A DNA stretch of 64,000 nt from Corbicula japonica (taxonomy: Eukaryota; Mollusca; Bivalvia; Venerida; Cyrenidae), in NCBI GenBank assembly GCA_038501625.1, contig JAZAYU010000173.1:558001-622000 (forward strand). The letters are read 5' to 3'. The notes below the pieces were generated by a model. It searched no databases. It was not told the DNA's origin and worked only from the letters and a program-made list of their open reading frames with translations. Shown here piece by piece: positions 18,667-62,300 of this stretch; positions within the stretch are counted from its first letter, which is position 1, and the number at the start of each line of letters is the position of its first letter. Both the position numbers and the translations under genes were made by a program.

Positions 18667-18824
18667 GGACTGGTCCCAAGGTTATAAAACTGAGCATGGA
18701 AACCAGTCTCAAATCTCAAGGATCTGATTGGCTAAAATGGCGACTGGTCGCCATTTCAGCCAATCAGATGCTTGAGATTTGTGACTGGTTTCCATGCTTA
18801 GTTTTATAACCTTCAGGCCTGGTC
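18667..18824. mobile_element. Palindromic element P, copy a
   Basis: Near-perfect foldback: GGTTATAAAACTGAGCATGG...AATGGCGACTGGTCGCCATT... and back. Shared motifs of the family are CCAGTCTCAAATCTCAAG, ATCTGATTGGCTGAAATGGC and their complements. There is no open frame, so it is a hairpin MITE. Confidence 0.85.
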
Positions 18825-20345: not shown

Positions 20346-20800
20346 TATATTTCGATTCTCAAAAGTAAAACATGTTTATACCCTTTACTGAGTCTATTTC
20401 CCCGGTAAAATAAGTATTTCAGCCTATAGTTATAAAAATATTTCACCTTTTTTATTACATTGACATGCTTATTACGCACGTGTTCACTTTTTTGCAATTC
20501 AAATTGACAAATTGTCATTAACGAACTGATGCAGATGTACTGACTTGTTTTTTTAAGAAAGTAAACACTTTGAACAGCAGTATTCATATTTCTGGTCTAA
20601 ATGAAATGTCTTTTCATTTTCAGGAGCAATATTGAAAACACATTTGGTCAATGTGCCTACAATCATTCAATTTATTCATGCTTTTTATTTTACCAATATT
20701 TTAAATTTGAGAGTAGTTAACAGAAGTGAATATGTTTATATAATTATATAGATTTTAATTTATTATCACTACTAATTTCTATTATAAATATAATTATAAT

Positions 20801-21268
20801 TCTGTTTTTTTATCTCTGTCATCGTGTTCTTGCTGATTTGTCTCCTGAGACTCTTGTCTCAGTAGGGTCATTGTGCCCGCCCTTTCACTTTGCAATGCTA
20901 TTTGCTTGTTATGTTTTAAATACTTGTGTGCTTTTGCGTGAAACATTTTTGAGTTGATGTGTGGGTTGGAGTTATTTCACCAAGACAACTTGTACTTGTT
21001 TGTTAATATGAGAACCTTTTGGGCGAAGTGTGAGGTTGTTGTATCTATCGTTAACCTGGTTTAAACCACTGGTTGCAAATTGGTTTGCCACAAACCGTTC
21101 AAAGGCGGTAGCCCTAAGGGTTCAATATTTCGTTAATTGTTTGTGGTTTCTTATTTGAAAATTAATTTATATTCTGATAAACGTATGCTCTTTTTTCCTC
21201 TCTACTTTCTGGCTGCGTGAGAAGGCTGTGTTTTCTGAGTATGGCGATTCCTGATATGCACTTTCAAC
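20801..21268 (+). mobile_element. Retroelement 3' end, copy R2
   Basis: 5'-truncated copy starting at the ATCTCTGTCATCGTGTTCTT block and ending ATTCCTGATATGCA. It aligns with the untranslated tail of the coding copy R3 (25.9-27.2 kb). Confidence 0.75.
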
Positions 21269-35300: not shown

Positions 35301-38300
35301 ATCTTAGACTTGATTGCAAGTCAATATTGATTGATTTGATTTGATATTTCATTGATTGTATGATAATTGATTTATTTAAGTTTAAATCTTTGTCGTTTGT
35401 AAAAATTGCTACTTACGAAGTTTGACTTGCTGATTACGAGTCAGTATTGATTGACTGATTGATTGATTGATGATTAATTGATTTAAGTTTAATTCTGTGG
35501 TATGTACAGTTGGTACTTGCGGCTTTGGAATTGTAAATTACAAGTCAATATTGATGGATTGATTATTTAGGTGATTGATTGACTGATAACTGTTGTGATT
35601 GACATCTGATGGATAAATGATTTGGGTTTGGGTATAAGGCCAAACACTCGGATTCTAGTGGTCTTTTTTTACCCGACGGTGTACATTTGTCGCTCGTCGA
35701 AATGACATAGTTTTGTTAACAATTCAATCTGCTCTGGAATCATTTCAGACGAGCTGAATTCTATACATGTACTCGACCGTATAAATTGTTTATTAGGCCT
35801 GGCAGTATTGAAAGTTTATTTAAATTTCTTGAATGCGAATACCATTTTGAAAGTCATGTCAAAAATTTGTATTGTTGGCGTGAGCGCAACTGGCGCTCAT
35901 TGGCAGAAAATTTTTGACATTTAATCCATGAAAATTGGACTGATTAACATTTTATTGATAATTTATTTTATTGATAATTGATTCTATTGACGTTTGATTG
36001 GTATTTGATTTAATTGACATTTAATCGATAATTGATTTGATTGATAATTGATTTCAATGACATTTGTTTGATGATAATTGATTATTGATTTGATCGATTA
36101 TTGATTTGATTGATTAATTATTGGATTAACATTTGATTAATTATTGGATTATCATTTGACTAACTTAACATTGAACTTTGATCAAACTTGAACATTGATG
36201 ATTATTTGTCGACTGCCAGGCCATATTATGCCAAATATTAAACAGTTCTACATGGTTACTATTTTGTTGAATTTATTTCCGAGATAATTTCCTCATAATT
36301 ATTTTCTTATTTTGAAATAAACCTAGAAATATATATTCATATAAAACGGTCTTTCTTAACAAGTTCAACGAGTGATCCTATCATTAATTTAGTTTAATAT
36401 TAGAAAAAAAGTGAAATATGCATATCGGGAATGGCGACATTCAGCAAAACACAGCCTCCCTATACAGCCAAAAAGTAGCATGGCATTAGAAAAAATAATT
36501 TCTTTATGGACGCCACAAACAATCAAAGAACATGAAAACCCAAGGGGTTACCGCCTTGGAACGGTCAGTGGCAAAACAATTTGCCACTTAGGGTTCAAAC
36601 CAGGTTCTAGGGTGCACCAACCAACATTTGCCTTAACAGGTTCTCATATCACAACAAGTACAAGTTGTCTTGGTGAAATAATCTAACCCACCCATCAGCT
36701 CAACAATATTGCATTCAAAATCACACAAACATATAAAACGTAAGAAGCTAATAGCATTGAAAAGCCGAAGGGGCGGGTACTCAATGATCTTTCCGAGACC
36801 AGAGTACCTGGAGTCAAATCAAGAACACGATGACAAGGATAAAAGAAACAAATCGAGCTTCTCGGTTCTTTAAAAAACATTTTGAATCATCGTCTTTACC
36901 AGCACCTTCTTTCTGTATGCACTTATCTACAAATATTCTTCAATTGCTTAACACGGAGAAAAAACACATTTGTCCCTTTCCATAACCAAAATTTGATTTA
37001 AAAATTGCTAACATGCTTCATTTAGAATTACCATCGAAAATAAAATTTTTGATTGGCCATTGATGCTTAAAATTGGAGGCAGTCATTAAGCCTGTCATTC
37101 TGACAACTGACTTCCGTGAACTGTTAAGATCAGTTGAAAAGATAAACCGTGTATAGGTAGACAAAGTACTTTAATCATTTCGTGGATGTAAAAACACATT
37201 TTAGAGTACAAAACGGTATTGTCTAAATAGCTTGACTTATAAAAATGGGAAAAATATCACATAAAAGTGCATGGGCATTATGAATTTTATTAGAGATCAT
37301 TTCATGAGAAACTAATGTCATCGACTGATATTGACGAATATAACATGGTCGAATTGCTCTGACTCTTAGAAGCATACAATCCATTCATTGCACGAAGAGT
37401 AGCGAATGAATATCTAAAAAAACTGCCAATGACGGTTGGAGTTCGGAAAGAAAACAAACCTAGTTAGGATTTCAACGTGTACAAATCGTAATTAATTGCA
37501 TGAACAAACCTACCTATGACTGTAACCCTGACACGTGCGGAGTCTTTAACGAGCTCAGTTGGATAAGATATTGGTCTGGTCTCCACAGAACCACCTTGTG
37601 TAGTGAAAGATATCAAAACGGGCGTGTTCTTTTCCTTCTCAATGCCTTCCGCCTAAACAGATAATATTAAAACATAGGCAAATATGATTACAAAACAAAT
37701 CAAAGTGTCTGATAGACAGTATCTGATAGAATCATGCTTACAAACATTGTGACCTCCATAGTTTAAGCGCTTTTCCGTGTTTTGATATTTATTGTGTTTT
37801 ATAATTAATGTTTGTATTTTGTCTTGTAAATTTTTAGCGATTGAAATATATTTAGTTGTAAGCAACGGAATTAAATAATGCCTTCCAAACACGAACTGCA
37901 TACCACCAAATGAAAAGTGATTAGAATTCGGAATAATTTTTATTGTCTTAATTCAGCACCTTTGAAATACCTGATATCATTCGTACTTAAAATCAATTGT
38001 CATTATAAAATTGGATATCGGTTTAAAAATAAACTTGTATAACTTTGAGTTTTCTTTTTTCGTGCAAACATTATTGTCAAATTTGGGTCTCGGTTGACGA
38101 AAATCAGATTTTTGCATTCTAAGCAAATCTGATGGCGTATTTGTCTAATTTCGGAGGCTATTTATCTTTACATTCAATATGCCAAACACTGCAAATTTTA
38201 TAGCGATTTTCTGCGTTTCGATTTAGACGATTTGGTACAATCTCCATCGCAGAGTTGTCGTTCCTTACACTCACTTTACATCTCTGCAAAATGCTCAATG

Positions 38301-41300
38301 TCAAGATTTTTGACATAACTCTACAGCCTTATTTTATACAGTCATAATTATGGATATGAAAGCTTGTGGATAAACAAACGACTTTCAACTTTTATTGTAT
38401 ACTCTCAGGTCATATGACAACATGAGGTAATAATAATAATATATATAGTTAAACAAGGGTGAAAACAAACATAAAGATACAAAGAGATAATATACACAAT
38501 ACGGGAGAAATTCTCCTGTAAGAATTAAGGTATTACATTAACAGTCATACAAATAATGTTACAAACGCAAGACAATCATTTACTTGAATTTGCATATAAT
38601 ATGTTTTATAAAGATACATAGATTTTTGTAATCATGGTTGCTATTACTATTCATATTTAACAACTTATCAAATTTAAAGATATTAGGTCTATTAGTATAC
38701 TCTGGTTTGATATATTTTAGTCTCATTGATCTTAAAATAGAGCATTCAAATATATAATGAAATTCGTCGCCTATACCAGTATTAAATAGTGTACATATTT
38801 GATTTTCTAATAAAATATTATTCCAAGATCCTGTTTCAACTGGTAGTTTGTGATTTCTGGTTATAAATTTGATAGTATAATTTAAAAAGCAATCGTCTGT
38901 TTCAGTCAAGTATTTTTCAAATTTAAATTCATGTTTGAACAACCTATATATCTTGCAACTGCTGGAATTTTCAATAGTTGTAAACCAATCGTTTAAAAAT
39001 AAATATCTTCACTATCTTTCATTCAAACCAAAGAAACCCAAGCAATTTTAAAATAATGTAATTGGTGAACTATATTTTTGAGTTAAAGTAAAAGTAGTTG
39101 AAAGTAGTCCCAGCCTATAACAGAGGTGAATGTAATTTGATGTCTTTTACAATGAAAAATTTTTTAAAACTGAAACTCAATGTATTAGTAACAATTGAGA
39201 ATTTTCAGTCTCTGAACGAACAATATTTTAAGTAAATTATTTTGTTGCGATACAGTAATGGTTAATAATAAGAAGTAAAAACCAATGGTTTGTGTTGAGC
39301 TACTTCGTTCAATGAAAGAAACTTGTTTAATAATATAAATAATAGCACGTTGTTAGCTTTATCTTTATCTAAAATGGTTCGCTTTACCTTAACTGGAAGA
39401 GTCCTGATAACTTCATCAAATCTGTTGGTAGGTGGGGCGATTTCGGCTCGGACGTTTAACATCATGTTCTTAATTTTTAATGGCCTGATGTTGAAGAAAA
39501 CAGGCGTTGGCTGATCCTTTCTTACCTAAAATTAACAGAGGATCTAATGTGCAATATCTTGCCTGTTACGAGACAAATTCAAGAGGCACCACTAAACATT
39601 CAAATGTCATCATTTTTTTCTTAGAACACAGAAACTAGATGTACACGTGTAACAGTGCTACTTATCAACACTTCTGTAAATTCAATTACGTTATTATAGT
39701 TTGTTCGCTTGATGAATATATTAACAAACTCAGAAGAAAATCTTAGTTAACTAATTTAAATAATTATTCTTAAATATAAGAATGCAGACAAGAACTTTGT
39801 TATTACCAAAACACAAGCTGTCATGTCTCCGGTAACTTCTGTCTCTACGTTATTCTCGTCAACGGTTATACCCACGAAGTCCTCAGAGCCTTGCAGGCGC
39901 ACTTTCACCTATAAGTTAATTATATTATTAGATATGTTCACAGGAGCAACAAATAACAGGCTACAAATAAAATTAGATGTCTTATTTACCAGACAACCTG
40001 TTACACGGCTAGTAAGCTAAATATTATAACAATACAATTAAAATTCTCTTAATAGAATGACAGCCTTATCTTTGTAAAATTTCCGGACTGGTGCATTTGC
40101 TTTAAATTGTGTGTTAAATATTCAAATCCTATAAGTGTTAGAAACATTTAAGCACAAACCAAGTTAAAATTATTTTAATGTATGTATAATAATGAACCGT
40201 GATATTTTTACAAACCTTGTGATCTTTATCAAGGTAGTTAAAGATATTTGCTTGAATGACCGCAGTCTCCCCTCTGACCACTGAATATGGGAGTTGAAGG
40301 TTTACAAAGAATGGTAAGAACACGGTCAGCTAGAAATAAAAAACTTTGACATTTCCAATAATGTACTTAGGCTATTTAAAACAATGTTATACATAAAATA
40401 GTGCATTTAGTATAAGACAAAACTGTGCAAATGACAACCTTGATTTGAAGAGTTTAATCACCAAATCCCTATGTGAAAGAAATTGTGCAATGCTAGATAA
40501 AACTAAAATAATAAAACCATTTTGGATATTTAATTTTAGGCGTGTCACCATACTGCTGACTACCCTTTTGGATATTTGTTTAAGTAAGTTGCAGACACTT
40601 GCAAATAAACGCTAAAAAAATTTTACTATTATGAGGGATGATCCACAATAACGTAGACTTTTGTTACTGCATCTTTATTTGAAACACGTTCGAGATAAAT
40701 TATATATCAAAGTCAATCAGAACACAAACGTAACAAACTGAGCTAAAATATTCATATATTTAATCGATTTCAAAAGCGCGTTCCTTGTTTGAATAACCAT
40801 GGTAACACGCATGCGGCGCACGTCATTACGGCAATATTTTATAAAGCGCATGCCGGTCCATATAAACAAAACTACTGGTGGGAAAAGAGACAAACTTCGC
40901 AACATCAAAGCGCGGTATAAGATTTATGCCATGTCAAAATTTTACGTCATTCTTACTTTGCGTTTTGAAAACAATCAATATTTAAGCGAGCTATAACAAA
41001 CGTGAAAACGTCAGAAATGTTGTCGTAAGATCGCCCGAAAATACGCGCTATTATAAAATTTTGTCACGATCTTGGAAATCCACCATCAGAAAAGCTCAAA
41101 ATGACTGACCAGAAGCAAATGAAAACTTCCGTAAGACGAGCTCTAATTTTAAAGTGGCATCAGTGGTTTTTAAATGATCAGGAGAGTCGGAAAATAAACC
41201 TGGGGCAAGGAAGATACAACAACAACCTCGTTACTGGGTGACGTCAAGCCGGGAAGCGATTGATGCGGACAAAAGTCCAGCTATTGGGGCGCTGCGCGAG

Positions 41301-44300
41301 CTATTTTATAGTGTTTAAGGAACCGTGCAACTGATATTGCAGAACAAAATATATTTTTCAAAGGTATGTTAATATTTTGTTAACGAAATTGTTTTTCAAA
41401 ATATGTTTTTGTTTAGTATTTGTATCGTTAAAAACTCATAAATTATCAAATAAGACTAAATATGTTTGTTATTTAAATTACACTTGAGTAAACGGCTACG
41501 CACACTGTGTCTACAGTCCAAACACTTGTTTAATTTTAAGAATTAAAATTTGTAATTAATTATTTTTACAGGTACACGTTCGTTGCTAAAGGACCACGAT
41601 AGTAGCGATGGGTTTTGCATTCCCTGTCGTTTCTTCGGCGGTGCGAGCGAGAAAGGGACCGATTTCTAAATCGCCTAATACAAAATGGCAAAACTTTGAC
41701 CAGCAATGAAGCTCTGCAATATTCGATCAGTGGGTTCTTCGACATCGTATTCCTGTGATGTAACGGGGTCTATTTTGAGAACTTTGAAGGTACGCTGCTT
41801 TGCTAACGCTGCGCCCATGAATTAATAACGTCACTGACGTTGATAGATCTAATTTGACGTGCGCCTGATAGCGCTTAGTGCATGATTTTAATTGTTTTTT
41901 ATGTAATGTTGTATTTTGCTGATATTTTGTAAGAATATGCTGGACATATTCCGATTAAAGCTTGTGTAATTTTATTTGTGGTATTTTAAATAATGTAAAA
42001 ACTATAACAAAAGTCTACGTTAATTTGGATCATCCCTCATATTTTATAATTTTTTGTTTTCAATATTAACAATTGGACACTGGTTTCAAAAACTACATAA
42101 AAAATATCTACAAATGTCAGGTGTAAATTTGTGAAGAATTCAGTTTAATTCCAATAAATGATATTCGGTTTATAAAAATTCGACTTCTTACACAATGCAA
42201 ATTAATTTACACCGATATTAAACCATAAAAAAGTCTTCATTTGGTGTAGAAACATTTTTGTTTGAAAGTTAGTAGTAGAGGATTTTCTGATATTTGCCTA
42301 GAATACTAATAAGTAAAACAGAAAGCACACAATTTCTCTGCACTTGATAATTTTTATGCCCCCACAAAGTGGGAGGCATATAGAGTTGCACTCGTCCGTC
42401 CCTCCGTACGTACGTCCGTACGTCCGTACGTCCCCAAATCTTGTGGCATCAACTCCTCCTAAACTATAAGGCGGATTTCTTTCAAACTTGCACAGATGAT
42501 CAAGCAGGATGTGTAGATGATCGTAAAGAAAGGATTTTTTCCTGCGACCATTTTTACCAGAGTTATGGCATTTTGTTAATTTCAGTTATAAAATATTGTG
42601 GCGTCAACTCTTCCAAAACTATAAGGCAGATTTCTTGCGAACTTGCACAGATGATGAAGCAGGATGTGTAGATGATCGTAAAGAAAGGATTTTTTCCTGC
42701 GACCATTTTTACCAGAGTTATGGCCCTTTGTTAATTTCAGTAATTAAATCTTGTGGCATCAACTCCTCCAAAACTATAAGGCTGATTTCTTTCAAACTTG
42801 CACAGATGATGAAGCAGGATGTGTAGATGATCGTAAAGAAAGGATTTTTTCCTGTGACCATTTTTACCAGAGTTATGGCCCTTTGTTAATTTCAGTAATT
42901 AAATCTTGTGGCATCAACTCCTCCTAAACCAAAGGGCAGATTCCTTGCAAACATGCACAGATGATGAAGCAGGATGTGTAGATGTTCGTGAAGAAAGGAT
43001 TTTTTCCTGCGACTATTTTTACCAGAGTTATGGCCCTTTGTTTTTTTTTCAGTAATAATATCTTGTGGCATCAACTCCTCATTTACTTTTGGACAGATTT
43101 CTTTCTAACTTGCACACATGATCAAGATGGCTGGGTTGATGATCATATAAAAAATATTTTTTTCTGCTGCCATTTTACCACAGTTATGGCCCTTTGTTTA
43201 TTTCACTTACAAAATTTTGTGTCATCAACTTCACATTTTCTATTTGGCTGATTTCTTTCAAACTTGCACAGATGATTAGACATGATGTGAAGATTGTTGT
43301 AAAGGACATTGTCTTGCAACAATTTTCACCACAGTTATGGCCTTTTGTTTATGTTAGTTATTAAATTTTGTGGCACTTACTCCTCATTTACTAATCATGA
43401 TCACCACATGTTGTTAATACCTGGTACAAAATTTTGTAACAAATGTTATTGCAGCAGTGGGGGCATCAGTGTCCTGTGGACACAGTCTAGTTCAAATTGC
43501 ACTTACATTGGCAGTGCTTGGCGCAACTCCTAGACCTGTCTTGGTATTTAAAGCAAACGCGTTAGCAACAAACTCTGTGATAGTATCTGGCACTACTTCA
43601 TTGAATATCACCTCTCCCGTCTCACTATAAAGAAAGAAAAACCGATGTATCTATCGCAACAAAAAAATTAAGTAAGTTAAACTATATCATGGCAAAATTG
43701 TTTATCATGTACGAATCACTCAAAGAAATGATAGTCATGCAATTCATTTAAGATATTACACAATAAACTGAAAAAGCCAAGTAAACATGTAGTATACATA
43801 CATGTATCATAAAACATATGGAAACTTTAAAGGCCACCGAACACGACTACTAGTAAAATAGTGCAAGCTCTGTTAATTTAGCACTTATTGAAATGCATAT
43901 TATTTATCTCGCCGCCAAGCCCCGGGTTAAGAGCAACTCAATATTTTCATATTTTCAGCGGCCTTCACGTGGTATAATTGATTACAACACTGATTGAATG
44001 TACGGGGCGACGTTTTACGAAACGAACAACGCCACTATCATAATTAAACAGAAAACAATGAACTTTGAAAACCACTGAACAGGACAAATAGCCAGATGTT
44101 GAAGGGTCAGTTTGTTTGAGCCTGTTCTCGAGCAGTAATGGAAATGCCTATTACCGTCGTCATGATGAAATATTGCAAAAGAAAGAGAAAAAAGTTTTGG
44201 GTGTTTTTTTTTCCATTAAAGGTCGCAGTGACATTGAACGAACATGAGGACCTAAGAATCAACAGAATTCGTCTACTCGTTACCACTAACCAACATACTA

Positions 44301-47300
44301 AGTTTTGGGATATTAAGCCTCTCAAGTTATTTGATCGGTCAAAGTTGTGCATATATTGTCATTGTAACCTAAACAAATTCCTCAACATCAATAGCGGTCA
44401 TCTACTAACTGTCGATTCGACATACCATAGAGTTCTCTATTTATCAATCTTATATAAATGTAATGCCATAAATGTAATTATCACACCCGTCCACCGACAG
44501 ATCCAAGAGCAGACATGTTAAGTTGTTGCAAATTTGAAAGAAGTGTACTAGGTAATTTTCATTTCGCTAGTTTTGATTAATTCTTCGAGAAAATTATCAG
44601 CTGTCTTTAAAAGCTAAATGAATTCTGCACTTATCCGTTGATTTGTGTTGAAATCTTCCAAGATCTGCATTTTATAGCAAAATGTTCGGTAAATCTGATA
44701 ATCTACATTAATATGTAAGCATTGTTGGAAAATTTAATCCCCTGGCAACATGCGAAATATTAGAATAGAAAGAATTTTAATAAGTTCCTAAAAGCCTACT
44801 TAATAGAGCTGGGGTTTAGCAATAGCCAGCTCCATGGAGCTTTTACTCGAATTTAGTAATCTGAACGTGAGGGATTACGTTTTGATCCGTTTTATTTAAT
44901 AAAAGATTAGCAAAGACTTACATTATCTGTAAATGGTTTGCGACTGCACATGCACATTGAGGTCTGTACGTTTTTATTCTTGTTAACATTCTTTAACAAT
45001 TGTGTTTTTAAAAAACGAATTGCTAACTCCCCTTAAATTTGGGATCGCCTTATAACCTCTCAGAACAGCTTATAAAATCGGACAATACCAGTTCGCCATG
45101 ATATATAAAAATATCAGAGCTCGCTTGCATGTATTTGTCACAATGTACTTGTATGTCATTTATCGATAACGTACTGTGCCCAAGGTTATAAAACTGAGCA
45201 TGGAAACCAGTCTCAAATCTCAAGCACCAGTCGCCATTTCAGCCAATCAGATGCTTGAGATTTGAGACTGGTTTCCATGCTCAGTTTTATAACCTTGTGC
45301 ACTGTACTCAAATTGTTTTACCTTGCTAAACCTGATTTCCATATCCAAGTTTCGGGGAAGTCCTTTCTGATTTGTCCGACAGGAGCTTCGCCACCACGAC
45401 CTGATTCGACAGTATCGGACATCATCATAGCAGCACCACCAAATGCTTGTACTCTTCTGCTTGCTACTGCCTGAGTTTCTATGGGAAAATAAAGTCTTCA
45501 TTCTTAATTATGATAAATGGTGTGTATATAATAATTTACGACAATTATCAAATTAAAACACTATTCTGTTCCTAATTAATTCACAATATTGTCAAATAAA
45601 AAGTGCAGACAGCTGAAAAAGGAACCAAAATGGAAGAACTTTCGGTACTACTTTGGCTTTTTTCAAGCTTTGATATTCTCCTCAAGAATACCTGCCAACA
45701 CGCGAACATTTTGACACTCACTTTGACAGGTTACTTCCACCAAATTGCTTAATGCTCTACTAATCGCCAAGAAGTAGCAATGTTCGCAAGAGATAATTGT
45801 CATAACGTTTCAAAAATAAATTTATCTTGTTTATTTAGTATTTCGAGTGTGATAAAATGTTTTATTTCAACACGCAAACTGTTTTTAAACTAGTCTAATT
45901 TTATTAAAGTTGAAAGACGTTTAATTGTCAAAGATACACATTCTTATTGAACGCAAGAAAGTGGTTTACTTTTTTGTATTCTTTACAACAGAAATTTTAT
46001 TAAAACGAAAATAATCTTCTGTGTATAGTTAAATAATATCATAACTCGCAATGGATAGGTTCGATTTGTATTAACTAGTAAGTATCGAACCTGAGCAGGT
46101 TTATTAATTTAAAAACAAAACTGAAAAGATCGGTAAGGGTTATATAAAAATGTAACAATTAGTCAAGATCAGTCGACGGTATATAGATCTCTGTATTACT
46201 GCCATATGAATTTGAAATAACCATGATCCAGTATCAGAATAGAGGGTCAAGGAGTACAAGTTACTTACCAACTTGCCACAAATCAAATCTGTATAAATTT
46301 GCGTCTGTTAACACCCTAAGGTCTGCATTCTGAAAAAAAAATCATATTGAAATAAAATGTTACAGTTGCTATAGTAACGTTTTAGATAGAAAACAGGATA
46401 ATATTAAATAAAGCTACCTATCAACCCATGAACATTTTAATGAAATAGTCTTTTCACAGCTTCACTCTTTATACCATGTTCATCTAATGGGTATCACAAC
46501 TTTAAACAACCGTGTGCCCATATAAAATGCTCTTTAACAGTAGATTGTCTATTTTTCGACTCTTTGGCCTACATAATGATATAATAACTAAAGACCACTC
46601 AAAACAAAATTAAAATAACGTCAAATAATTTCTGATCATCAGGGCTGAAGGTTATAAAACTGAGTTTGGAAACCAGTCTTTAATCTCAAGCATCTGATTG
46701 GCTGAAATGGCGACTGGTCGCCATTTCAGCCAATCAGATGCTTGAGATTTGAGACTGGTTTCCATGCTCAGTTTTATAACCTTGGGCACAGGTCCTGGAG
46801 ATTTTAAGGCTCCAATGAAAACATAATGTTCACTACACGATCATGAATAAATACAAATTAGTAGCTCACTGTTACTCGTTACCTTAGAGCAATAACAATA
46901 TATCTCCTTCATAATTCAATAGTTCTTACACCGTTTTTGACATGTTATTGTAATATTTGTTGTTAGTACATGTCCAATACCTATATTACTTTTACTTGAG
47001 CTAGTGTCTGTCAAATTATTTGAGTTTGCTTTCAATGTTTGAAATGTACATAATTAACAAGTGATATTGAATTCATGTGTTTAAACTCATATTTGTGTGC
47101 ACATTTTAAATGAAAATTAGTCATAATTTTATTTTATGCGCTCTTTCAATAAAGATTATTATCATAATTATAGTCTAGAACTGTTTTCAATCCGGATTTT
47201 GTTGTGCGTGATTGCATGGCTGCGATATAAACAATACGTAAATAACACATTGAAAACGGAATTATTAGGATCATTTTAAGTACCTTCAACAAAAACAAGT

Positions 47301-50300
47301 ACGTTATATTTTGTATAGTCCTTATCGGTTGGAATACTATTTGTTTTTGCGCATATAAAGGGATAAAAACTTGCAAAATTGCATTTAATCACAAGAAGGT
47401 CTGGTAAATGACCCACATGATTGTATCAAAATATTGTTATTCTCTACAAATAAACGCTCTGATGCACGAATACATACTAGTTATATGACTCTATGACATT
47501 AATATAAAGATTATTACATTAAAATATTGCTTTAAATGTATAGATAGTGTAAATTATTAAAATATTTGAGGGATGTGTTTCGTAATGACTGTACCATCTA
47601 TAGCATTATCATACTATCATTTATAGCAAACACACCTATTTCTGTTGTATCATTTAGTGCGATCTTCGTTGGATGATTTTTCAATAACCTGTATCACTTA
47701 TGGCGATGCGCTTTTGCTGATTTTATCAAGTTTATGCTTTTAGGTAAGATAGAGGAGTTCGTCTACATATATTGGCTATAAAAATCGGGTATAATTGGAG
47801 AAATAATAAATCATGGCGTACAAAAACACGAATTGAACTTTAACATACTAAAACAGAATGATACAACAATAGTGACTTTAGGTTATTGTTAGTTTGGAGG
47901 CTTGTATAAAAATTAAACTGTCAGGCCCAACGCAGCTGGGCGACCGTTTAATTTTTCATACAAACCTCGAAATTAAACTGTAAACTGTTTTTGTAACTGA
48001 TAAATTGGCATACACATAGATTACACAAATCAGTTGTCAAAACAGTATTTTAATGGCTAGTATAAATGTATTATGAGGATATGTTAGAAAGCGAATTCGT
48101 TAATTTCTTTAACTGAAATCAGCATGGGATCATACCTGACTCTCAAGGGAAGACCGTTGTGTTAGTCAATCCTTGGGCGGAAAACAAGACATTGATTCCT
48201 TTGCTAAAGTTCCATTTGACCCTTTACTCCATGGGATCATATATAGCATGGGATATGGAGTACGTTGTTTTTGCTGTACAGTGTTTGCTATTACATTTAT
48301 TAGAATATTTCTGAAAACAAGTGATCATTGTATATCTACATTTGTCGTACATTGAGTAAAGGGTTTATCTTCAGCTTAAAATATCAGTATTTAAATAACT
48401 TGCTTTGCTTCAGAATTTGCATGTAACGCATACCTGCGTATGTATTTATAATCGTGAACCTTGAATTTCGAAACTATTACTTAAAAAAAAACCTTAGACT
48501 ATGTTTATCAAATCCAAAACATTTTGGGACGACATTAATTATCGCTTGTTGTAAATTGTAGTTCTCAGAGTGGTCTGGGTGTTAACAAATAAAGTCAGGT
48601 AGATCCAATTGTTTCGTGTCGCCGCAGTATATAAAGGCACCGAGGCGCTTATATTTAATAACGTATCATATTTCTGTACGAAGCACTTTTAATACATGTT
48701 TTTACATCAAGCCGTTGTTCTTAAATCCGAAAAATATACTAAAATCATCTTTAAAAAATCGCCATAACCGATACACATTAATCACTAGAAACAAACAAAT
48801 GACTGAGTTAACATGTTCAATAAATGATACAGTCTAAGTCAAAGCTACATGCATGTTTGGTCTAATGTTTTGATGTTTAATTGATCAGCTATGGTATTCT
48901 TATTATTGTAAGAATAAAAATGATATGTTTCACCATCGCTAGCATGAGAATACCTCTCATAACCTGTTAAAACATAAACATTTACGCTGATTTTATTACA
49001 CTACACAGTTCAAACAGTACTTTGTGTGAGTGATTTAAGCGATTTTTTTAAAGTATATTGCATAAAAAAATGTAATTACGTCTTTCATAACAAGTGCTAC
49101 GAGAATCGCCTGTTGAATATGTATTTGTCGATTGGATTTCTCATTACAATACATACAAAATCTCCTCATTTTTGAACTGTTTACTATGTTTTGTGACAAT
49201 CAGTGCGCTATATCCGGTAGATGATACAATCGGTTTATATACAGTGCCTATCTTTGAGAGCTTACTTCAAATATGTCGCCTGCGTCATCCGCCGGAAATG
49301 ACCACGGCAATATTGGACCCCAGCCACGTACAATCCATGGGTTGTCACCGAATTGGTTCATTTCGTCTTTCACCTTAAATAGTAATTTAGTCAAACTATG
49401 AATTCCAATTTCAATGTAAAAAATATTGATTTTTTTTTGTTTACATTGTTGTATAGAATGATAACGGTATCTAACTTATATATTTCAAAATCTGGATAAA
49501 ACATAATTAATTATTTAACAGTTGTACGTACGTCTTTATAAATAATTGTTCTATTATTCATGTAATCACTGGGCTGAAGGGTATAAAACTGAGATTGGAA
49601 ACCAGTCTCAAATCTCAAGCATCTGATTGGCTGAAATGGCGACTGGTGGCCATTTCAGCCAATCAGATGCTTGAGATTTGAGACTGGTTTCCATGCTCAG
49701 CTTTTTAACCTTAGGACCTGTTCTCTCAAAACATTTCATGATGACATTTTGCTTCTAGTGAACTTAACAAAAAATAGTCAACGGTTTATATTTTAATACT
49801 GAAATCATAGTTATTCTAATTAAAATATGATGTTTCGTTTGTAAACAAAATTAGTAAGAAAAATGGAAAATATATGTTCAAGTCTGCAAAATCGAACAAG
49901 AATATTGTTGCATTTTACCCTTTTTGGAGTAATATCATTGCCTTCAGCGAGTAGCATCACACTCTTGTCCACAGCTAAAACGTTCACCAGAGAGTCTCTG
50001 TCCGCTTTTACTTTCAACCCTACACTGGATTTCGGTTCTAATGGTGAAGGCTGCACAAACTCTATTGTGACCTTAACACATTAACCAAATAAATGAAAAG
50101 GAACTTTGAAAGGTGCCGAACAAATTCAAATTTGTTTCAGAGATCAACTGGATTATTTACCTTTTGTTATTTTCCTTTTACTCATAATTATTACCGCATG
50201 ATGTCTTCGAAATTTACAACTAAAAGTTTAACAATTTTATTAAGCAGTTGTTTTTTTATTTAGAAACAAACATAACTGTTTCAAATCATTAATAAAATAA

Positions 50301-53300
50301 TATTTGTTCAAGGCAACGTAATTGTTTTAATACCATAGCGCCATGACCGGTAGACTAGAATTTCTAAAAAACAAGTTGACGACAACATGGTTTTCTGTAA
50401 ACTTATTGATAATTACAATCTGTTAACTTAAGAACTAAATAACATTAATCAATACGCTTGTTTCAATCACCATATAAATATCTTTCCTGCTTAAACTTTC
50501 ATTATTTTCATACTTTGTCCATGTTTTATGATGCGCAGAAATGTTTTTTTATTCTTAGACCATGTTTAGTAGCGCCGATTGCTGTCAAGTTCGATGCATT
50601 TTATAGTTCAATTTACATCTATCAAATAACATATTGTTCAGTTACGTAATTATGCAAATTTAAACAGACAATACTTCAAATATCTATCTAAACGATTCTA
50701 AACGACACGTATTGTTTACTAAGAGGTTCAATGCATATTCGTATCAAAAGCTTGAAATGTAGAGTTGAAGGTGGTTTGGTGGGCATTATGCAATTGTTTA
50801 AAATAAATATAATAAATCGTGTACCTTGTTTTCAAATATCTCTTCAATAACAAAGTTGAGCCCATCAGCCATAATTTCACCATCATCCTTTACACAGAAT
50901 ACCACAAAACGAGAGGTGGGTGCCATTTCCCTGGTAACGGGGATCTGAACAACCCCTTCACCGAACTGTCCGGCTATTTCGAATTCCCCTGACGTAACCA
51001 TTTGCCCTTTAGACAAAATCTGAAATACATGTTTGAGAAGAACCCATAATATCATGTTAATTTCCCCTTGTTGTATTAAATGCATGTTGGTTGTTAGAAA
51101 ATAAAATAAAATAGATAATGTCTTAAAAGAATCATTCTTTAAAAACGCTCTCTGCTCATTATAAGCGAAGAATGAGAGTCACATTGAAATGTGTGTTTAG
51201 ATCGGCTTACTAATAATTCACAGTTAAATAGTCATCAAAGATTCATACCACATATTTAGCAGTACAAGCCCCTGCTGTATTGGTCACTTTAATGGATACT
51301 ATGTCACCGATCTGAAAGAATAAAAAAAAACAGAATTATTAAAATAAAGTAAAATACTTTACACATGTACTCACCACGAAAACTATAAGCAAAACATTTC
51401 GTTTCATTTTAAAAATTCTGTGAATGCACTTATCTCTGTTTCTTGTACACACATAATAGTCTGCTTGTAAGGCTTGATTATTTACTGTATTTATACACAT
51501 CTATTCGTTGCTGTTTTTATGATGGATAATAAGCAAATATGTATTGTTATTCATTTGATTAGGAAGATAATGTCACATACTTTCAACGGGTCCACCTTGA
51601 CATTGTTGAGTATCTCTGACTTCAGGAAGACATCGCTAGGAGACCGGAACCTGCGAATCTCTTTTTGAATTTTCATTCCCTTGAAACTGACCTAAAACAA
51701 ATATCTATAAGTTAATCAAGCTTCATTTCTTCTTCTTCTTCTTACTCGAATGACGTTTAAAATTAAAATAGTCAATTCTGGCTATAGTTTCTCTGCCTTA
51801 GTTATTAAGTGTTTACATGCAATTTGATTGTCTTTTTAACGTACGCAAGATTATGAAACCTATACCAGTGCTTTCCAGACATGTTAACTTTTTCTATATT
51901 CCTGAAAACATCGATAAAAAGTAAATTTTAAACACAAAAGTAAATAATTAAAATAAATATGTTTATAAGAAATATTGCAGAACAATTCAAAGCAAATTAT
52001 CAAGATGTGAGCATCAATGTAATGTGTGTACCTCGATGGTGGCTGTGGCAGTGTTGTCTGGTATCTGGATATCAAACTGAAGCGTGCCATCAGCACTGAG
52101 CTTATAACTCATTCTCTCCTTCATTATCACGTCGCCATTCAAGAATGGTGAAATCACGTTGAAGTTTGGTATGGTGATGGTGTTGGGCAATGAGCCGACC
52201 ACAGGCTTATCAGTAAAATACGTCACCGTGACGTTTACGTCGTCTGTTAAAGACTCAGGCGGTCGATCATCCTGCTGGCTTACCTTTAGCTGAAATAATA
52301 TTCAAACAATTATACTTAAAATGTCGACAACGCTACCAATTTTTAATTTCGCAAAGAACAGACGCATGAAAAGCAGTTAAATTTGTCAAATGCCTGTTCA
52401 TTATTGTCATTTTTATAGCCTTATGTGTTTAATTTTAATGCTTCGTTTGATTTTAAAATCGACTGACTTAAGTGAAAATTTGACTTCGTTTTGGGGCCTT
52501 ATCTCGCTCAAGTCAGAGCTAACGAAATGTTTGATCTGATGGGACACCCGTTTATAGTAAGAGTCAGTAGCGGCTCCCCCCTCCCCCCCACTCCCCCGAT
52601 AACTATTTTTAGAAACAGACAATACAGAAAGCATGATTCACAAAGCTCGCAAAATCGCATGAAGATGTCATTACAGTGAAAATCAATGCAACACCACATA
52701 AAACACACCTATCTGCAATAACATATGCCTAACGTGTATGTCGTTTATTTTAAAGTTAAAAGATAATTTTAATTGATATTTGGCCAATTTATTAATTGTT
52801 TGAAGAACACATTATGTTAACCGCCTATCCAAGTGTAACATCAACGAGTGCAGACATTCGAAATAATAGAAGGTTAAATACGGGGAAACAACGTATACTT
52901 ATTTCAACATACCCATACGTTATATGGATTAAAACCTGGTTTGAAGTTTTCAGGCATATTTGGGAAGAATTCGATCTTGTAAGGGTTACTATGGTAACGT
53001 ATATCTCCCTCTCCCTGTAGGGTGATACCAGTGATGGACTCGGTCACATTGGCAAGAATACGAAACGTTTCATACTCGATGTTTCGAGATAACCGCTGTA
53101 GTACGTTCATTGGTATTTCAAAGGATGCCGTGCCATCAATCTAAAATACATCGACACAATTATCATAATTTTAATTGCGTTCACTGTGCGCTTAATTCTG
53201 AAATAAAATGGAAATATTTGTAATGATCACAGACTCAATTTTAATACAAATTGAAGCAAACTGTACATTATACTGTACAAACACAATGATTAAAAAGATC

Positions 53301-56300
53301 TTGATCTCAAATTAATATAAAGGTTATGCAAAGACAATTACAGAAGTGTAACATCATTTGAAAAAAAAAAACTGATCATATTGGACATAGATAAGTTTCA
53401 TAAAAATACCTTCGTTATAACAACTTATTTATATTAGTCATTCTTAATCAGAGTGGTTACCATGATTGTAAAGTGATTGTATATAATATTTTAAAAATGT
53501 TTATTTTACCGGCATTTCGGTTCGGAGAGCTCTGATATCAAAGAATCCGCTGGAATACTGTCTGCTTATCGTCAGTGCAATATTTCCTTTCACTGGCTTT
53601 CCAAAGGTGTAACTAAAATTAGTAACCATAAATACGTTCACTGTCTTTCCGAAAGTGTAACTAAAATTAGTAACCATAAATACATTCACCGTCTTTCCGG
53701 AAGTGTAACTAAAATTAGTAACCATAAATACAATCATGTGCTTTCCAAAGATGTAACTAAAATTAGTAACCATAAATACGTCCACCGTCTTTCCGAAAGT
53801 GTAACTAAAATTAGTAACCATAAATACGTTCGCCGTCTTTCCGAAAGTGTAACTAAAACTAGTAACCATAAATACGTTCGCCGTCTTTCCGAAAGTGTAA
53901 CTGAAATTAGTAACCATAAATACGTTCGCCGTCTTTCCGAAAGTGTAACTAAAATTAGTAACCATAAATACCATCATGTGCTTTTCAAACGTGTTACTAA
54001 AACTAGTTACGATAAATACGTTCGATACTTTACTCTATATATACATGTACATATTTGATCACTTGTGCGACCAGTGAAGATCCAGATCAGCCGGAACGGA
54101 CATAACGGCTGACACAGATCATGTAGATCTACACTGTTGACCTACGCTATCGCGTGTATATATATGAAGTTAAGGGTAAATTCAATGATTTGACTCATTA
54201 TGATGCTAACAGATTAAATTGATCTAAATGCACCGAGAGATAGTCTAGTAATAGTTTAAACGAGGCAAGAATGTGATACGTTTGCCTTGTAAACATGTAT
54301 AGACTCTTCTTTTATGGTGTTGTGTAATTGATTGTCTTTTGTACTTTTATTCATATCGTGGGCTGAACTAAACACACTTTAAACACGAACCGGTAAACTA
54401 TGGTAAAATATGGTTCACTCTTAATCTACTCCCTCGGAAAACAGTCGAGAAAATACGAATTGAAACCCAAATTGATGAAATAAGGGAAACCGAAAAACAT
54501 CCACAATTGTCTGACCGATTGATGCTATCAGTTTATCAACGGAGGGCCGCAACTTTTCGCTAATAGGGGTCCTACTTTTATGATGGTTAATGCTTAATTT
54601 GTAAATATACTGTACATTATACATTACCTTTAAAGTTGGATAAGTTTGTTAAACTTTGTTTGATAAACTAGACAGGATTTAAGCAAAACTGTGAATGGCG
54701 TTTATAGAATTGCGATCACTCTAACCGAGATCAGCTTACGGATTCGAACATCTTAGCAGGGTCTACACTGTTGGATGTCCTGTCAATGAAGCAGTCTAAA
54801 AACATCTAGAGACGAGTTAGATCCTTTTTCGGACCATGCAATTTGAACAATATGCCTTACGCTGGTATCATTGAAAGTTAGACCCAATTTTGTCACGTTG
54901 CGTATAATATTAATTTTTTCGAGTTTGGAATTACGAGTACTTTGTACTAATTTAAGAATAAAGCTTGTGTATTCCTGGTGTTTATTCGTGTTTGTGTGCG
55001 CTGTCTCAAATGTACCAATCGAAATTAGTTAATTTAATTTGTGAGTTATTCAGAAGCAGCATATATTGTGCAAAACTCAGAAACATTTTCTGCTGAATAC
55101 GTTACTTACGCTGCTTTCACTGTGCCCGTGAGTGATGTATCGGAAGTCCGACCGAATGGTGGCAAAGTAACAGTGATCTCAAACTTCGGCAAAACTGAAA
55201 TACAAACATGTTTATCAGTTGTTTAAGAATATACGTAAATTGATAATAAATGAACGTCATAAAATACTAAAATATTTCTGCATACATCTGGTTAAAAGTA
55301 GTATAAGAATGTATTTTTGCATTGGCTGTTCAAATTCTGTTTTTAAAACGACACATATTAAATAATAGTATTCGTTTTCTTTTATTGTGTGTTAAAACAT
55401 TGTATACTGTGTCTTTGCAAATTTTTGCAATTTGTTTTCTTTTTAGTTTGTTGGGTAAAAAGTGAATTATGGCATAAAGAACGCCTTAATATACCCTATA
55501 CGCCAAACCTTCCTAAATATAAACAGTGTATCTGTTCAAAAAGATGAACATGTTGAACCTAAAGAAGAACACAGGAATGCCTTTGTTACCATTTTACACA
55601 TTTTAATATAGATTCCTTAGTTGCTGTTTTTGGTTTTGTTATTGTGTTTCAGATACAAATACATACTGAATACTTTAAGCGACAAAACATATCGGTATAG
55701 AATTTTTTAACAACTTACCATATTCCTTTACTTCGAAGTAATAGTCTTTTGATTCTTCAAATTCCTGAAATAATTGTAATAAGATAGTGACAATGCATTT
55801 AAACGGAATTTAAAAGAAAACGTTCATGACATAAATGTTTTATAAACACATTTAAAATGTTTATTGTAAGAAAAGCAACGACCCCAGTAAACTGAGGATA
55901 ACATGGGGCGCGTCACGGGAAAATGTGCATTCGGTCATATTTTTAGATATTTTAGTTGTTACTATATCTGGAAAGATCTTACCTTTATATATTATTTTCT
56001 CATAACTTATTGTAAATTTTGTTACACATTTTGACAACACAATTTTATTTTTAGTGCGAAATGCATAATAAGTTTTGTCGGCTGATCAACTTAATGACGT
56101 CATTTCAAAAATTGACGTCAAATGCCCGAATGTACCTTTTTCCCTGACGCGCACCATTTCTGTTTGTTACAGCGAAATATCGTCTGAATAACCTTGATTA
56201 AGGATATGAAACACAAGTGTACGAACAAACCTTTGCATTGACTGCTATTCTCCAGTTCCCTAACGGGGGCATATCCGATAGAGGCAAAGAACCTTCTACT

Positions 56301-59300
56301 CCCGTCAGGTTTTTAACTCCACTTCGCTCGTCTATTTTGTTCCCTTTTGGATCCTGTAAATACCCACATGAAACAGATATTTACCATAGTAAAATCTTAG
56401 GATAATAATTACTATACAACTGATAAAAATAACTATACAATTATAACTGAAATGAGATGAAAAACAAACGTCACAAGAATATATCCAGTGCTCTTTGATG
56501 TGATTGATAATGTAAGTTGTATTTCACACATTTTTGGATAAGACGTAACACAGTGTTCTGCCATTCTAAATGTGTCGATCTAGCAGAATCCGTATTGGAA
56601 AGGTTTGGAAGAAATTCAAGTTACATCCGCCTCTTATTGCACAACAATTCATATTTTCCCTAAGGGACTTGAAATGGCGACCAATCGGATACTTGAGATT
56701 TGATACTTGTCTCCAATCCTAGTTGAATGATCTAAGGCCTTAAAGACTTATTTGTTATTATACTCTCCAGACCCCCGGGATGCAGGGTATTGTCCTGTGT
56801 TATTTTTAGTGCGCAAAAACATAACAGTCAAATATACATATTATAATATACAATTATAATATATAGATATACACTCATATATTGACTATTACTGTTCGAG
56901 AATCAAATAACACAAAAAAACACACAATCACCCGCGCAAGCGCCCGCGATTGCGCACACACAAACTTACAAAGAATTCTATGTCAAGCAGTGGATCGACT
57001 GGCTCAAGCTTGCTGTTAACCACAAAGATCCTGTATTGAACTGAAAAAAATGACAATAATGAGCTTCATGTTTATGTTAAAATTGTTTTAAAAATAATGA
57101 GAATAATGTTGATGTTTTTCAGACATTGTATTTATGTAAATGTTTCGATTCCCAAGTTATACAATTTAATCTAACTCAATCTTTATTGAAATTAATTGTG
57201 TTTTGATGTTATTGTTATTTTGCTGGGTTTTATTTCTTGTTTTGTTAAAACATTTTACATGTATTTATTTTAACTTTTTGATCTAACATTTTCGTTTTCC
57301 TTTTATTATCATTTGTTGAATATTGAATATCTTAAAGTCAAAGTTCAAAGTTCAAAAGTTTTATTAGGCATAAACATTAACAGTTTTTTGCCCTTAACAA
57401 TGGCGGATTTTACAAACATAATACAATCCAACATATTCATAGAAGTAGAAGACATGTTCATAGCAACATATATACTATATGATAGGAGATAAAGCATGAT
57501 ATACATAATTATTAACTTAACATAACATGGGTAATATATATTTTGTTTTCTTATATCTAAATACTTCATTGGGTTCAAATTAATATACATTTTCATCAAT
57601 AGTATAAAGCATGATATACATAATTACTAACTTAACATAACATGGGTAATATATATTTTGTTTTCTTATATCTATATACTTTATTTGGTTCAAAGTAAGA
57701 TACATTTTCATCAAGAGTATAAATATTTGTTTTGTTTATTACATACTTAGAAAACCAACCAGCAAAACAAAACAAAAATGCTGAGTCAGTGTCTCAAGAA
57801 CTAGTGTCTTTCCGCTAGAATCGTTTCTTTGGGTTATAATGCTAATAAAGATCAATACAGTCTATGTTTACACACGTGTGTAATTATCAGTAGAAGGAGA
57901 TTACTCAGTCTAAATTATGAAACAACATGGAAAAATTATTGATATTTTATATATGCAAGCCTATTAAAAACGTTGTACTACAAGGGGGTTCCATCTAATT
58001 CGCATTACCTTTCGAGAGTTCAATATGTTTATATTAGTGCTTGAGATGAAATAAACTGGTTAAGTAAACGAGATTAGCCAGATTTAGAACTAAATATACC
58101 AGTTTCTCCTGGTTTGTACATGGCTTTGTCTGTCTGTACGAATATGGCAAACGTTTTGGGACGCCCATATACGTTGGTAGAGTTGTGGAACTTGACTGGT
58201 CCACTTCCTGTAACGTTGACTTGGTAACTACCCCAAGCCAGCTTTGGTGGTACCTGTTGCAAAATTCACCAGTAAATTTAAACACGATCGTTTATACATT
58301 AATCATTACATACTGTTATTAATTAGAAATCGTTTTATAAACTGTTAATGTGGAAAAAACAAAACAAAACGTTTAATAGTGTAAAAAAATTATATAGTAA
58401 TACTTTAATTTAGATTTGCAGGTACTTCCAATTTCAAAATGTTGTAATCGGTTTCAGCGATAAAAAAGACTATATACAGCATTAAACGTTCTGTGTAGTT
58501 GTTTTCTTCTTTGAGAATAAAAAACGTCAAAACGAAATTGTAGAACAAACCAAATACCTGAAGTTTCACTACTGCGCTTGTCTGACCTGAAATCAGAAAA
58601 AAACGAAATGTGCATGGAAGGTTTCGGAAACTATTTACTGTTTTGTTACATTGTAGAAGCGGGTTTTATTTTTAACAACATTAAAAGTAAAAAACTTTAA
58701 TGAAGATTTTAATGGTACATGTTTACATTATTGTCTATATAATATTTAAGTTTTCCTGAGTAAAATCCTTGGTGATTAAAACAGAACAGCTTAATCTAAA
58801 ACTATTGATATGCAAAACAAAATAAATGTCACAAAAAAAGAATTACTTCATAGCTTAAACTTTCGACGTCTATTTTAATTGTGTAAATATTCAGAAACAC
58901 AATACCATAGTATCATCATTAAACAAAGTCGTATTCATTTTATCTGCAACATCGTCCTCAGTTAACAAGAAGGTTTGCGCCAGTCGTATAATAATATCGA
59001 TAAAATTTAAAAAAAAATTTTATAATGAAAACCTATGAGAAACCTATGAGAACACACAATTTCAATATTAGTTTCGTATATTCAAGTAGCGTATATGGCA
59101 TAGAGAGTGAAAACTCAACACTTACTAACACAAAATAGATCGCATTCATGGCTTACAATTACAACCAATTGCCAATTTTGAAAATACTAAGAGAACACAG
59201 ATCTCATATTACGACCTTGAACAAAATCTATGTTATATTTTAAATAATACAACATGAAAAGAAACGTATCGGGTTATTTACAAAGTTTAAATCATTATTT

Positions 59301-62300
59301 TTTATACCGAAAAGTCTGAATAAATAACAGAAGCGACAAGGGTTTAGGGTTTGCGGACGGACATAGTCTTCTTGATCTCAATTTTTTTATGAATTCCCAT
59401 ATTTCAGAACCATAACAAAAACAACTTAAAATTTAGAATCAAACTGTTCAGGCGTTACTTTGTACTGTTGCAAAATCAGTTAAACAAATGAAAATCAACC
59501 ATTGCTCTGATATATGTTATTATTATCTGGGTTTTAAAGTGTAAACTTTACTGTTATAAATCGAAATTTACACAAACGTACTTTTCAGAATCGTTTATAA
59601 AATGTGTCCCTTAAAACGTTTCTTTGTAGCTCTTGCAAAATCATTTTAAGAATGATACTGATAAGAGTTTGATTTTTCTCTTTCAACTGTTTTATTTCTT
59701 CTCTTTGGTATGTCTTACTATCACAAATACAAAAGAATGGCTTCTTTATGTTATAGAGAAGTGAACAGATCTGTAACATTGCCAGAGATTATAACAAAAC
59801 AAGGGCCCAAGATCGTGAAAGTCAATCTGGAGACAAGTCTCAAATCACAAGCATTGCCAATTCAGCCAATCAAATACTTGATATTTGAGACTGGTCTCCA
59901 GATTTGGTTTTATGATCTTGGGAACAGGTACCATTTGGAACGTTTTCCGTGACTTGTGTTAGAACTGTCTCTTCAGTGACACCTTCTTTGATCCATTTTG
60001 ATTGAATTAGTAAAACCGTCACTTTTTCGTCGTTAACAGGTCCGGAAAAGTGTACAGGTACAGAAAGAGTGGTTCCTGGTCGGATATTCTGCGGCACAAG
60101 AGCTATGTAGGTGTAGTTTGCTGGTAACCTACGATCAATTAAGATATCTCACAAAATCATAGAGTGATGTAATAAATGATATGTTCTGTCGAGTTTCTGA
60201 AAGATGAAAGCAGGGTATAAAAACATCGGTGTTTTACTATGTTGACCAATACAAACATATTCAGTTAACAAACATGTACATGTAGTATATAAATGAAAAC
60301 TTGATCAGTTTAATTCGGTTGGACTATTTATATTTTGGTGTGTTTTTCACAAATTTAAACTTTCAAGTTTTTTTAATAATAAATGTCGTTGTTAGAATCG
60401 ATGCTTTAAATTATCATTTTCATTATTATGATCAAATGGAACAAATCGTATGACATGTAGTATATCACTCTATCTGCTAACACTTAAAACACGTTATGGT
60501 TGAAGCAATTCTAGAGAAAACTTTATACACCTTACCGGAAGTTTACCCTTTTTATCGGCTCACTTATGCGTCAACAATGGAGCTGTCAAGTTTTATTTGT
60601 TTAAAACAATGAGTTTATGGAATTTCAAAAACAAAAGTCACTTTCTGTGAGATTAAAGTCAGAAAGTTCCGTTTAAAACAAGTTAGGCTTGAGAATTAAT
60701 TTTTCATAGATGTTTACACTGCTTCAACTTGATTAGTTTGTCATAACTTAGACCACAAGCATCGGAGCGGATAAAAGGAAAATTATTAATATTGTATCAG
60801 TTTATAATAAGATTGAGGATGTAAGTATTCTAAAGTTATCGTATTAAAGGTTGGAGCTTCGTGCATATATATTTCATTTTGTGGCAACTAAGTTTTGAGT
60901 AGACACTGTTGATGCCAGAAAAATACGGTTTCTTTATTCGAAGAATCTGTCACTTGTCTAACGTCGAGCGCTATGGTAAAAAAAGAAAAAGCAAATACAA
61001 GTCTAAAAAGCAATGTTCACATGAAAATCCTACAGTAAATATGACATTATTTAATTCTTTGGTGTGACCTTTATTATGCATTCTCAGATCGTTTTCACAA
61101 ATGAAGTCTGTGCCCAAGGTTATAAAACTGAGCATGGAAACCAGACTCAAATGTCAAGCATCTGATTGGCTGAAATGGCGACCAGTCAGATGCTTGAGAT
61201 TTGAGACTGGTTTCCAATCTCAGCTTTATAACCTCCAGCCCTGTATTCCATAACGAAGAAGAGAACTGCACGATACAAGCATCTTATAGATGCGTGTCTG
61301 CTACATAAACTCGGTAATTAGGCTTTTTTCAAAACATTTAAATGTAATAAAAGGTACTTCAAATTCATTTACTGTCATTTTTAGCTGCATTTATTTACAT
61401 TATTTATCGTCACCTTCCTCTCGTACTGTTATTCAAACCGGTTCTATATACATTATCTGTCGTCACCTTCTTTCTGATTCTGTTATTCAAACCGGTTCAT
61501 TTCACATTGTTTGACTAAATTTATAATGAAACTCGTACTTAGTTTTCATTGTTAGTTCTAAACTAATTTCCCGTAGTTAACCTTCTTCGTAATTATGTAC
61601 ATATATATTTTACTTCTGGCTACACATTAGCGTCGGTTTTTTGTGTGACTGTCAGTACACTGTGGTTAAATCATTAGTCAAAGAAAACGTGCAATTAAAC
61701 TACTTTTCGGACACAATTACGCCTGACAGAAAAAAAAGAAAAATGTAAAAGTGTATTGAACGGAACATTATTTAATTGCACTTGTTTAAACAATTGTTAA
61801 AAAACTAAGCTTATAAAAGGCGACAATTAATAAGCTTTAACACAGTATCTGGTCGACTGCGGGTGACCTTTGCAACCAGTGGATTTTTATTTAACATGAT
61901 GTTTCTCTAGACGTTTCTTTTCATAAAAATGACTGCCCTGTAGAACCAATTCCGAATCATCTTTTCATTGTGAGTAAAAAGAAACACACCCTTCTATCAT
62001 TGGTATACACAATGTTTTAATTGTTCTATTTTTATAACCAATCACGATCTCACAATGTCACTGCATTCTCTGATCAATCCGTTTTTACTTTCGATTACCA
62101 ATTTAAAAATAAATAATGCATGCATCACGCTCCCAACGAGCGTTGCACTCCGCGGAATGTACCCAGATAATGAGAATCGCGGATAACGATAGATTGTGAG
62201 AATAATGATAGATCGCCAGGTCAGAGAAAACACCATGGAGAGGATAGTTATTGTATGAATTTCATGTTATTGTGATCTAATACTTATCTTTTGCGATAGA

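Follow-up and report, generated by a model that had tools for sequence, protein, structure and literature searches.

A 48-bp minisatellite across an intron/exon junction repeats a 3′ splice site of a thioester-containing protein gene in Corbicula japonica

A thioester-containing protein gene and the array at its eighth exon

The window, i.e., the whole stretch of 64,000 nucleotides of C. japonica DNA analyzed here, carries on its minus strand a gene (Table 1) that, judged from its predicted domains, its GCGEQ motif and its intact frame, is a member of the thioester-containing proteins (TEPs; A2M/CD109/TEP superfamily). Exon phases of the gene model are consistent, and the start of the first exon, the signal peptide and the end of the last exon were left unset. 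Pfam searches of the spliced model identified MG2 (PF01835), MG3 (PF17791, residues 202–281), A2M_BRD (PF07703), A2M (PF00207), TED_complement (PF07678), and A2M_recep (PF07677), and the thioester motif (PYGCGEQNM) is encoded by exon 33463–33281. The closest named relatives among the matches listed stem from Mercenaria mercenaria (58% identity over the whole query), Ruditapes philippinarum (52% over 90% of the query) and Mya arenaria (48% over 97% of the query); a further protein, P0001, shares 73% identity with the modelled TEP. By sequence, the nearest solved structures are chains of the CD109 antigen (9fx2, 8s3o). With one preceding exon for the signal peptide, none of which was found, the modelled exon 8 would be number nine. 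When exons 6–34 were compared with the window, the best second match had an E-value of 0.015, and none was convincing as an exon duplication.

The first-pass annotation of this DNA had described a 48-bp unit, composed of an acceptor and the beginning of the following exon, that is repeated about eight times upstream of that exon. This description is confirmed by Tandem Repeats Finder, by a probe search and by the register of the acceptors. Tandem Repeats Finder reported a period of 48 with 89% matches (score 640) and, as read from one haplotype, 9.1 copies. In transcript direction, 24 nt of intron 7 end sequence are followed in each unit by 24 nt homologous to the beginning of exon 8, and nine AG acceptors lie in register on the minus strand at 53612 + 48n (n = 0–8; Table 1). 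A 24-base probe placed over the acceptor gave eight matches with at most three mismatches in the window, all of them inside the array, and none in 100 shuffles. By blastn of the array against the window, only matches of 14–25 bp (E 0.029–0.36) were obtained outside of it.

The local context is nearly alike for eight of the nine acceptors, the outermost one (53996) being decayed. Eight units lie upstream of exon 8, and over 24 nt their exon halves are 3–7 nt away from its true start. Six of these units (type A) are 1–4 nt apart from one another; the other two (type B, acceptors 53996 and 53756) are separated from type A by 9–12 nt and from each other by 5 nt. The outermost unit has diverged from the consensus at 10 of 48 positions. 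The near-identity of the type-A units points to a recent expansion or to homogenization.

Table 1. Gene, exons, tandem array and modules at the locus (positions within the window).
Feature	Positions	Strand	Description	Basis
TEP/CD109-like gene	23583..60118	−	34 modelled exons, 1443 residues, 0 internal stops	gene model and Pfam
Exon 7 (exon 8 of the first-pass annotation)	55110..55194	−	donor AGC/gtaagt, phase 2	gene model
Exon 8 (exon 9 of the first-pass annotation)	53510..53612	−	acceptor 53612; MG3 (YTFGKPVKGN...TEMP); donor CCG/gtaaaa	gene model
48-bp tandem array	53589..54023	−	across the intron 7/exon 8 junction	Tandem Repeats Finder and acceptor register
Open frame	53504..54034	−	open in exon-8 phase through all units, 177 codons	ORF scan
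Module 1	53613..53660	−	acceptor 53660; codes YTFGKTVNVFMVTNFS	acceptor register, translation
Module 2	53661..53708	−	acceptor 53708; codes YTSGKTVNVFMVTNFS	acceptor register, translation
Module 3	53709..53756	−	type B; acceptor 53756; codes YIFGKHMIVFMVTNFS	acceptor register, translation
Module 4	53757..53804	−	acceptor 53804; codes YTFGKTVDVFMVTNFS	acceptor register, translation
Module 5	53805..53852	−	acceptor 53852; codes YTFGKTANVFMVTNFS	acceptor register, translation
Module 6	53853..53900	−	acceptor 53900, top score of the array; codes YTFGKTANVFMVTSFS	
Module 7	53901..53948	−	acceptor 53948; codes YTFGKTANVFMVTNFS, as module 5	
Module 8	53949..53996	−	type B, most diverged; acceptor 53996, the weakest; codes NTFEKHMMVFMVTNFS	

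Splice sites and reading frame of the units

The acceptors were scored with a matrix derived from the 32 acceptors that the gene model has besides 53612, a comparison limited by the fact that the other exon boundaries had been picked by a generic matrix plus phase. On this own-gene matrix 53612 scored 9.13 and ranked 22nd of 33 from the weakest; five upstream copies likewise scored 9.13, and the remaining three scored 10.63 (53900), 8.57 (53852), and 3.65 (53996). Among the 6115 AGs of the window, 67 scored at least as high as 53612, seven of them being array acceptors including 53612 itself. With a matrix of 30 acceptors, 53612 ranked 24th of 30. Its rank from the weakest depended on the interval considered, being 31st of 33 on −20 to −5 or −30 to −5, and 9th of 33 on −8 to +1 alone. 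On a generic metazoan-type matrix it scored −1.4, among the lowest of the 30 acceptors then modelled. The suspicion that short polypyrimidine tracts leave most units silent is accordingly supported by the generic matrix and by the −8 to +1 interval, but not by the own-gene matrix. Moreover, this doubt bears equally on 53612, since an identical tract precedes this acceptor, which is required by the gene model.

Over −24 to +6, seven of the eight upstream copies have no or one mismatch to 53612 and the outermost has four; over −48 to +6, five copies show 2–3 mismatches, two show 9–10, and the outermost shows 17. The closeness of the seven copies means that 53612 has no advantage over its neighbors in local sequence. 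As to branch-point-like motifs, every one of the nine acceptors has TTTAT at −17, and 53612 has TACTAAT at −55 and −7. The best match per unit, TACTAAT, is only 7 nt away from its own AG, a distance too short for a branch point to serve that AG, and some copies may therefore be inert.

Exon 7 ends in phase 2 (GC/gtaagt), and the T completing the alanine codon is supplied by 53612 as well as by each of the upstream acceptors. As the period equals 16 codons, every step upstream would add 16 residues between ...TVKAA and YTFGKPVKG.... At the level of sequence, phase and period thus bear out the earlier claim that any of the acceptors keeps the frame, with 16n residues inserted into MG3. The open frame itself is not independent evidence, since the mirrored frame on the plus strand is, as a side effect of the repeat unit, open too (53495–54058, 187 codons) and since neutral mutation often leaves the units open. 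A random 48-mer of the same composition was open in the given frame in 29% of trials, and in a simulation of neutral mutation with this unit and the observed difference counts all copies were stop-free in 57%. A period divisible by three is expected by chance in one of three cases, and half of the unit is already coding. We estimate the joint chance at roughly one in five to ten, so that an open in-frame array is weak evidence.

Codon changes between the units gave no signal of selection on the modules: 5 of the 16 distinct changes relative to the consensus are synonymous (p = 0.35), as expected without selection. Variable columns are fewer in the intron halves (5 of 24, nine copies) than in the exon halves (13 of 24, eight copies; Fisher p = 0.036). 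Without the two type-B units, 4 exon-half columns compare with 3 intron-half columns, the latter counted without the copy of 53996. Constraint on the acceptor halves was set aside as an explanation, since the column difference is carried by these two linked units.

The units were also considered as cassette or mutually exclusive exons. Exons ending at 27 of the 28 internal GTs of the array would have a length that is not a multiple of three and would shift the frame, the exception being 53990 (score 2.53), which would give an exon of 6 nt. The internal donor-like sites score at most 5.4, which places them low in the range of the 33 modelled donors (3.4–9.9). This arrangement was therefore ruled out.

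Homologous proteins, comparable systems and interpretation of the array

In all eight aligned homologs the residues flanking the insertion point are joined directly, with no module in between, which supports 53612 as the canonical acceptor. Module words were additionally scanned for in 134 retrieved proteins, namely the best 120 of 271 matches to the full-length model plus one module (E ≤ 0.001) and 14 matches to a 216-residue piece with five modules (E ≤ 10). None of them contained a module or two YTFGK-like motifs; stray matches comprised an unrelated one in P0119 (residue 27) and a single FGKTA each in P0122, P0123, P0124, and P0126. When a 614-residue piece was scored on the module region alone, none of 6138 candidates reached E ≤ 10. 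As this search missed known TEP relatives of admissible length (e.g., P0019 with 801 residues), it speaks only against multi-module proteins. All protein searches covered proteins of 0.55–1.75 times the query length.

In an AlphaFold2 model of P0019, a relative from Mya (alignment of 30 sequences, mean pLDDT 73.5), the insertion point corresponds to the end of strand 334–343, before the turn to strand 352–359. From this position, each module would be predicted to add one turn and one strand. A single-sequence structure model of the translated open frame looks like stacked strands (mean pLDDT 77.9). Confident structure models of near-perfect repeats are unreliable, and Foldseek searches with this model returned nothing at E ≤ 0.001 (best E 1.4), for which reason no weight was given to it as support.

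NAGNAG sites and other tandem acceptors are cases of competition for a single donor, with small in-frame insertions as the result. The array resembles them in its multiple acceptors facing one donor and in the in-frame insertions that their use would give; however, NAGNAG sites are 3 nt apart, whereas the nine sites of the array are spaced by 48 nt and each has its own upstream context. The closest parallel encountered is the VNTR in intron 18 of human ABCA7, which starts with the splice donor of exon 18 and consists of 25-bp units numbering about 12 to 427 in people, with an isoform retaining exactly one repeat unit found in mRNA (PMC5954066). In both cases the repeat unit contains an authentic splice site, which is hence repeated, with 53612 being the last of nine in register here. 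In ABCA7 it is the donor that is repeated, and use of the next copy of its 25-bp unit breaks the frame; the clam array, known from genomic sequence alone, repeats an acceptor with a 48-bp unit that keeps it. Apart from the ABCA7 repeat, no splice-site VNTR comparable to this array, and none on the acceptor side, was encountered in the titles and abstract beginnings of the literature matches listed. In Drosophila, intron gain can proceed by tandem duplications that copy proto-splice-site sequences and can allow differential splicing (PMC2891723), but there an intron is created inside a coding exon, whereas here an existing acceptor was multiplied. The C. elegans minisatellite CeRep25B has been linked to regions of multiple alternative splicing; it is an intronic element and does not consist of repeated acceptors (PMC4039745).

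The first-pass annotation had also referred to the diversification of TEPs by alternative splicing. Mollusc cases do exist, but in the excerpted text of PMC7016707 they concern alternative exons of the bait/cleavage region and not acceptors in MG3: BgTEP2 of Biomphalaria has 12 mutually exclusive exons over 30 kb, and CfTEP of Chlamys has six. They share with the array a tandem repetition within a mollusc TEP gene, which in those genes varies the protein by splicing. They differ from it in that whole bait/cleavage-region exons are repeated, whereas the clam array multiplies an acceptor with 24 nt of exon in MG3.

The account we hold to be the probable one, if narrowly, is that of a young minisatellite straddling the junction, with 53612 giving the main mRNA and the upstream acceptors probably giving minor in-frame isoforms. 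The array would have arisen by successive tandem duplications of 48 bp across the intron 7/exon 8 junction, so that each copy would bring along a putative 3′ splice site together with its 24 nt of exon 8-like sequence. Given how little the copies differ in local context, the choice among them should depend mainly on position and on signals in the exon or the upstream intron rather than on the strength of the sites. The homologous proteins suggest that the main mRNA uses 53612 and contains zero modules. The upstream copies appear competent by sequence and are probably spliced at a low level, with at least one of them probably used in a minority of transcripts. Exon 8 would then have a length of 103 + 48n nt, and 16n residues would be inserted in frame at a β-strand/turn boundary of MG3; such insertions are probably tolerated rather than selected. 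As for the earlier proposal of a splice-site minisatellite generating length variants, the repetition of the modelled acceptor, its phase and the similar local contexts speak for it; the neutral codon changes and the lack of a module-bearing protein among the 134 retrieved do not.

It is also possible, though we consider it the less probable case, that the array is a silent intronic minisatellite, that only 53612 is ever used and that the open frame is a by-product of unit composition. The upstream copies would then be skipped since exon sequence beyond +24 or the distance to the exon 8 donor defines the exon. The ease with which a frame stays open (29% of random 48-mers, 57% under neutral mutation), the neutral codon changes (5/16 synonymous, p = 0.35) and the absence of modules from the eight homologs and from the retrieved proteins all agree with such silence. 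What argues against it is that seven of eight upstream acceptors have no or one mismatch to 53612 over −24 to +6, so that nothing local makes them weaker, and that ABCA7 provides a precedent for the use of a repeated splice site. The opposite extreme is a choice of the first AG, with the branch point located upstream of the array. In this case 53996 or 53948 would be the most used acceptor, and the main protein would carry 112 or 128 additional residues in seven or eight modules. The ancestral intron would be the one beyond the outermost unit, and expansion would have pushed 53612 away from any ancestral branch point located beyond −24; yet the homologs lack modules, 53996 is the weakest acceptor (3.65), and the stacked-strand model of the open frame found no significant structural match (best E 1.4). 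We therefore regard this possibility as highly improbable. Tandem arrays are generally prone to mis-assembly, but an artefact, with a wrong copy number or an array absent from the animal, has a negligible probability, as the units bear different substitutions and an array of 435 bp should be short enough for single long reads.

A regulated diversification, in which the array works as a functional length switch and produces MG3 variants in the immune response, with a copy number that perhaps varies between individuals, is very unlikely. In its favor, the period is divisible by three, all acceptors are in phase, splicing diversifies mollusc TEPs (PMC7016707), and the intron halves vary less than the exon halves (5 vs. 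13 of 24 columns, Fisher p = 0.036). This column difference, however, is due to the two linked type-B units and disappears without them, the codons show no selection, the splice diversity described for TEPs in the excerpt of that study lies in the bait/cleavage region, and an insertion of 16 residues would be expected to add one strand to a β-sandwich domain. Regulated immune diversification by the array is thus unsupported. Also unlikely is a working ladder of acceptors, which would yield a graded series of TEP isoforms, their MG3 being extended by 0 to 8 of the 16-residue modules, and in which an unstable VNTR differing in length between animals would set the length repertoire of an immune protein via splicing. 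If a ladder of this kind operated, an even module number should be tolerated better than an odd one, since each module would correspond to one strand and one turn.

Even without an immune function, nine in-register acceptors, eight of them nearly identical, facing one donor constitute a clean natural test of spliceosome choice, in which position should decide the acceptor and the outcomes differ by steps of 48 nt. If the upstream copies were used, the array would mirror the donor VNTR of ABCA7 on the acceptor side and in frame, and it would be a way for a minisatellite to extend a protein domain while the gene stays intact.

Further repeats and a second gene copy in the window

A second tandem TEP copy is located on the minus strand at 12553–923. 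Homologs of exons 1–5 were found in it at 12553–12359, 12129–12100, 11117–10965, 10417–10346, and 1045–923 with 53–90% amino-acid identity, and its exon 8 is expected beyond the start of the window. Just upstream of its exon 1 homolog lies a 38-bp tandem array of 7.7 copies (12684–12977). Another tandem array, with a 155-bp unit and 6.1 copies (42436–43375), is located in the intron between modelled exons 18 (ending at 43507) and 19 (starting at 40329); it overlaps with none of the modelled exons, and its period is not divisible by three.

Interspersed repeats are present as well. One of about 150 bp, i.e., the size of a SINE, occurs in both orientations with pairs about 75–94% identical (18663–18825, 45173–45309, 46640–46797, 49568–49725, 59805–59920, and 61108–61248). 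Copies of another, 300–500 bp long, are about 73–85% identical (2062–2369, 20803–21273, 26710–27214, 36403–36882, and 62422–62788). Finally, 19613–20347 and 29905–30655 form a pair in opposite orientation with 88% identity over 764 columns, the latter copy being intronic and situated about 20 bp downstream of modelled exon 30859–30676.
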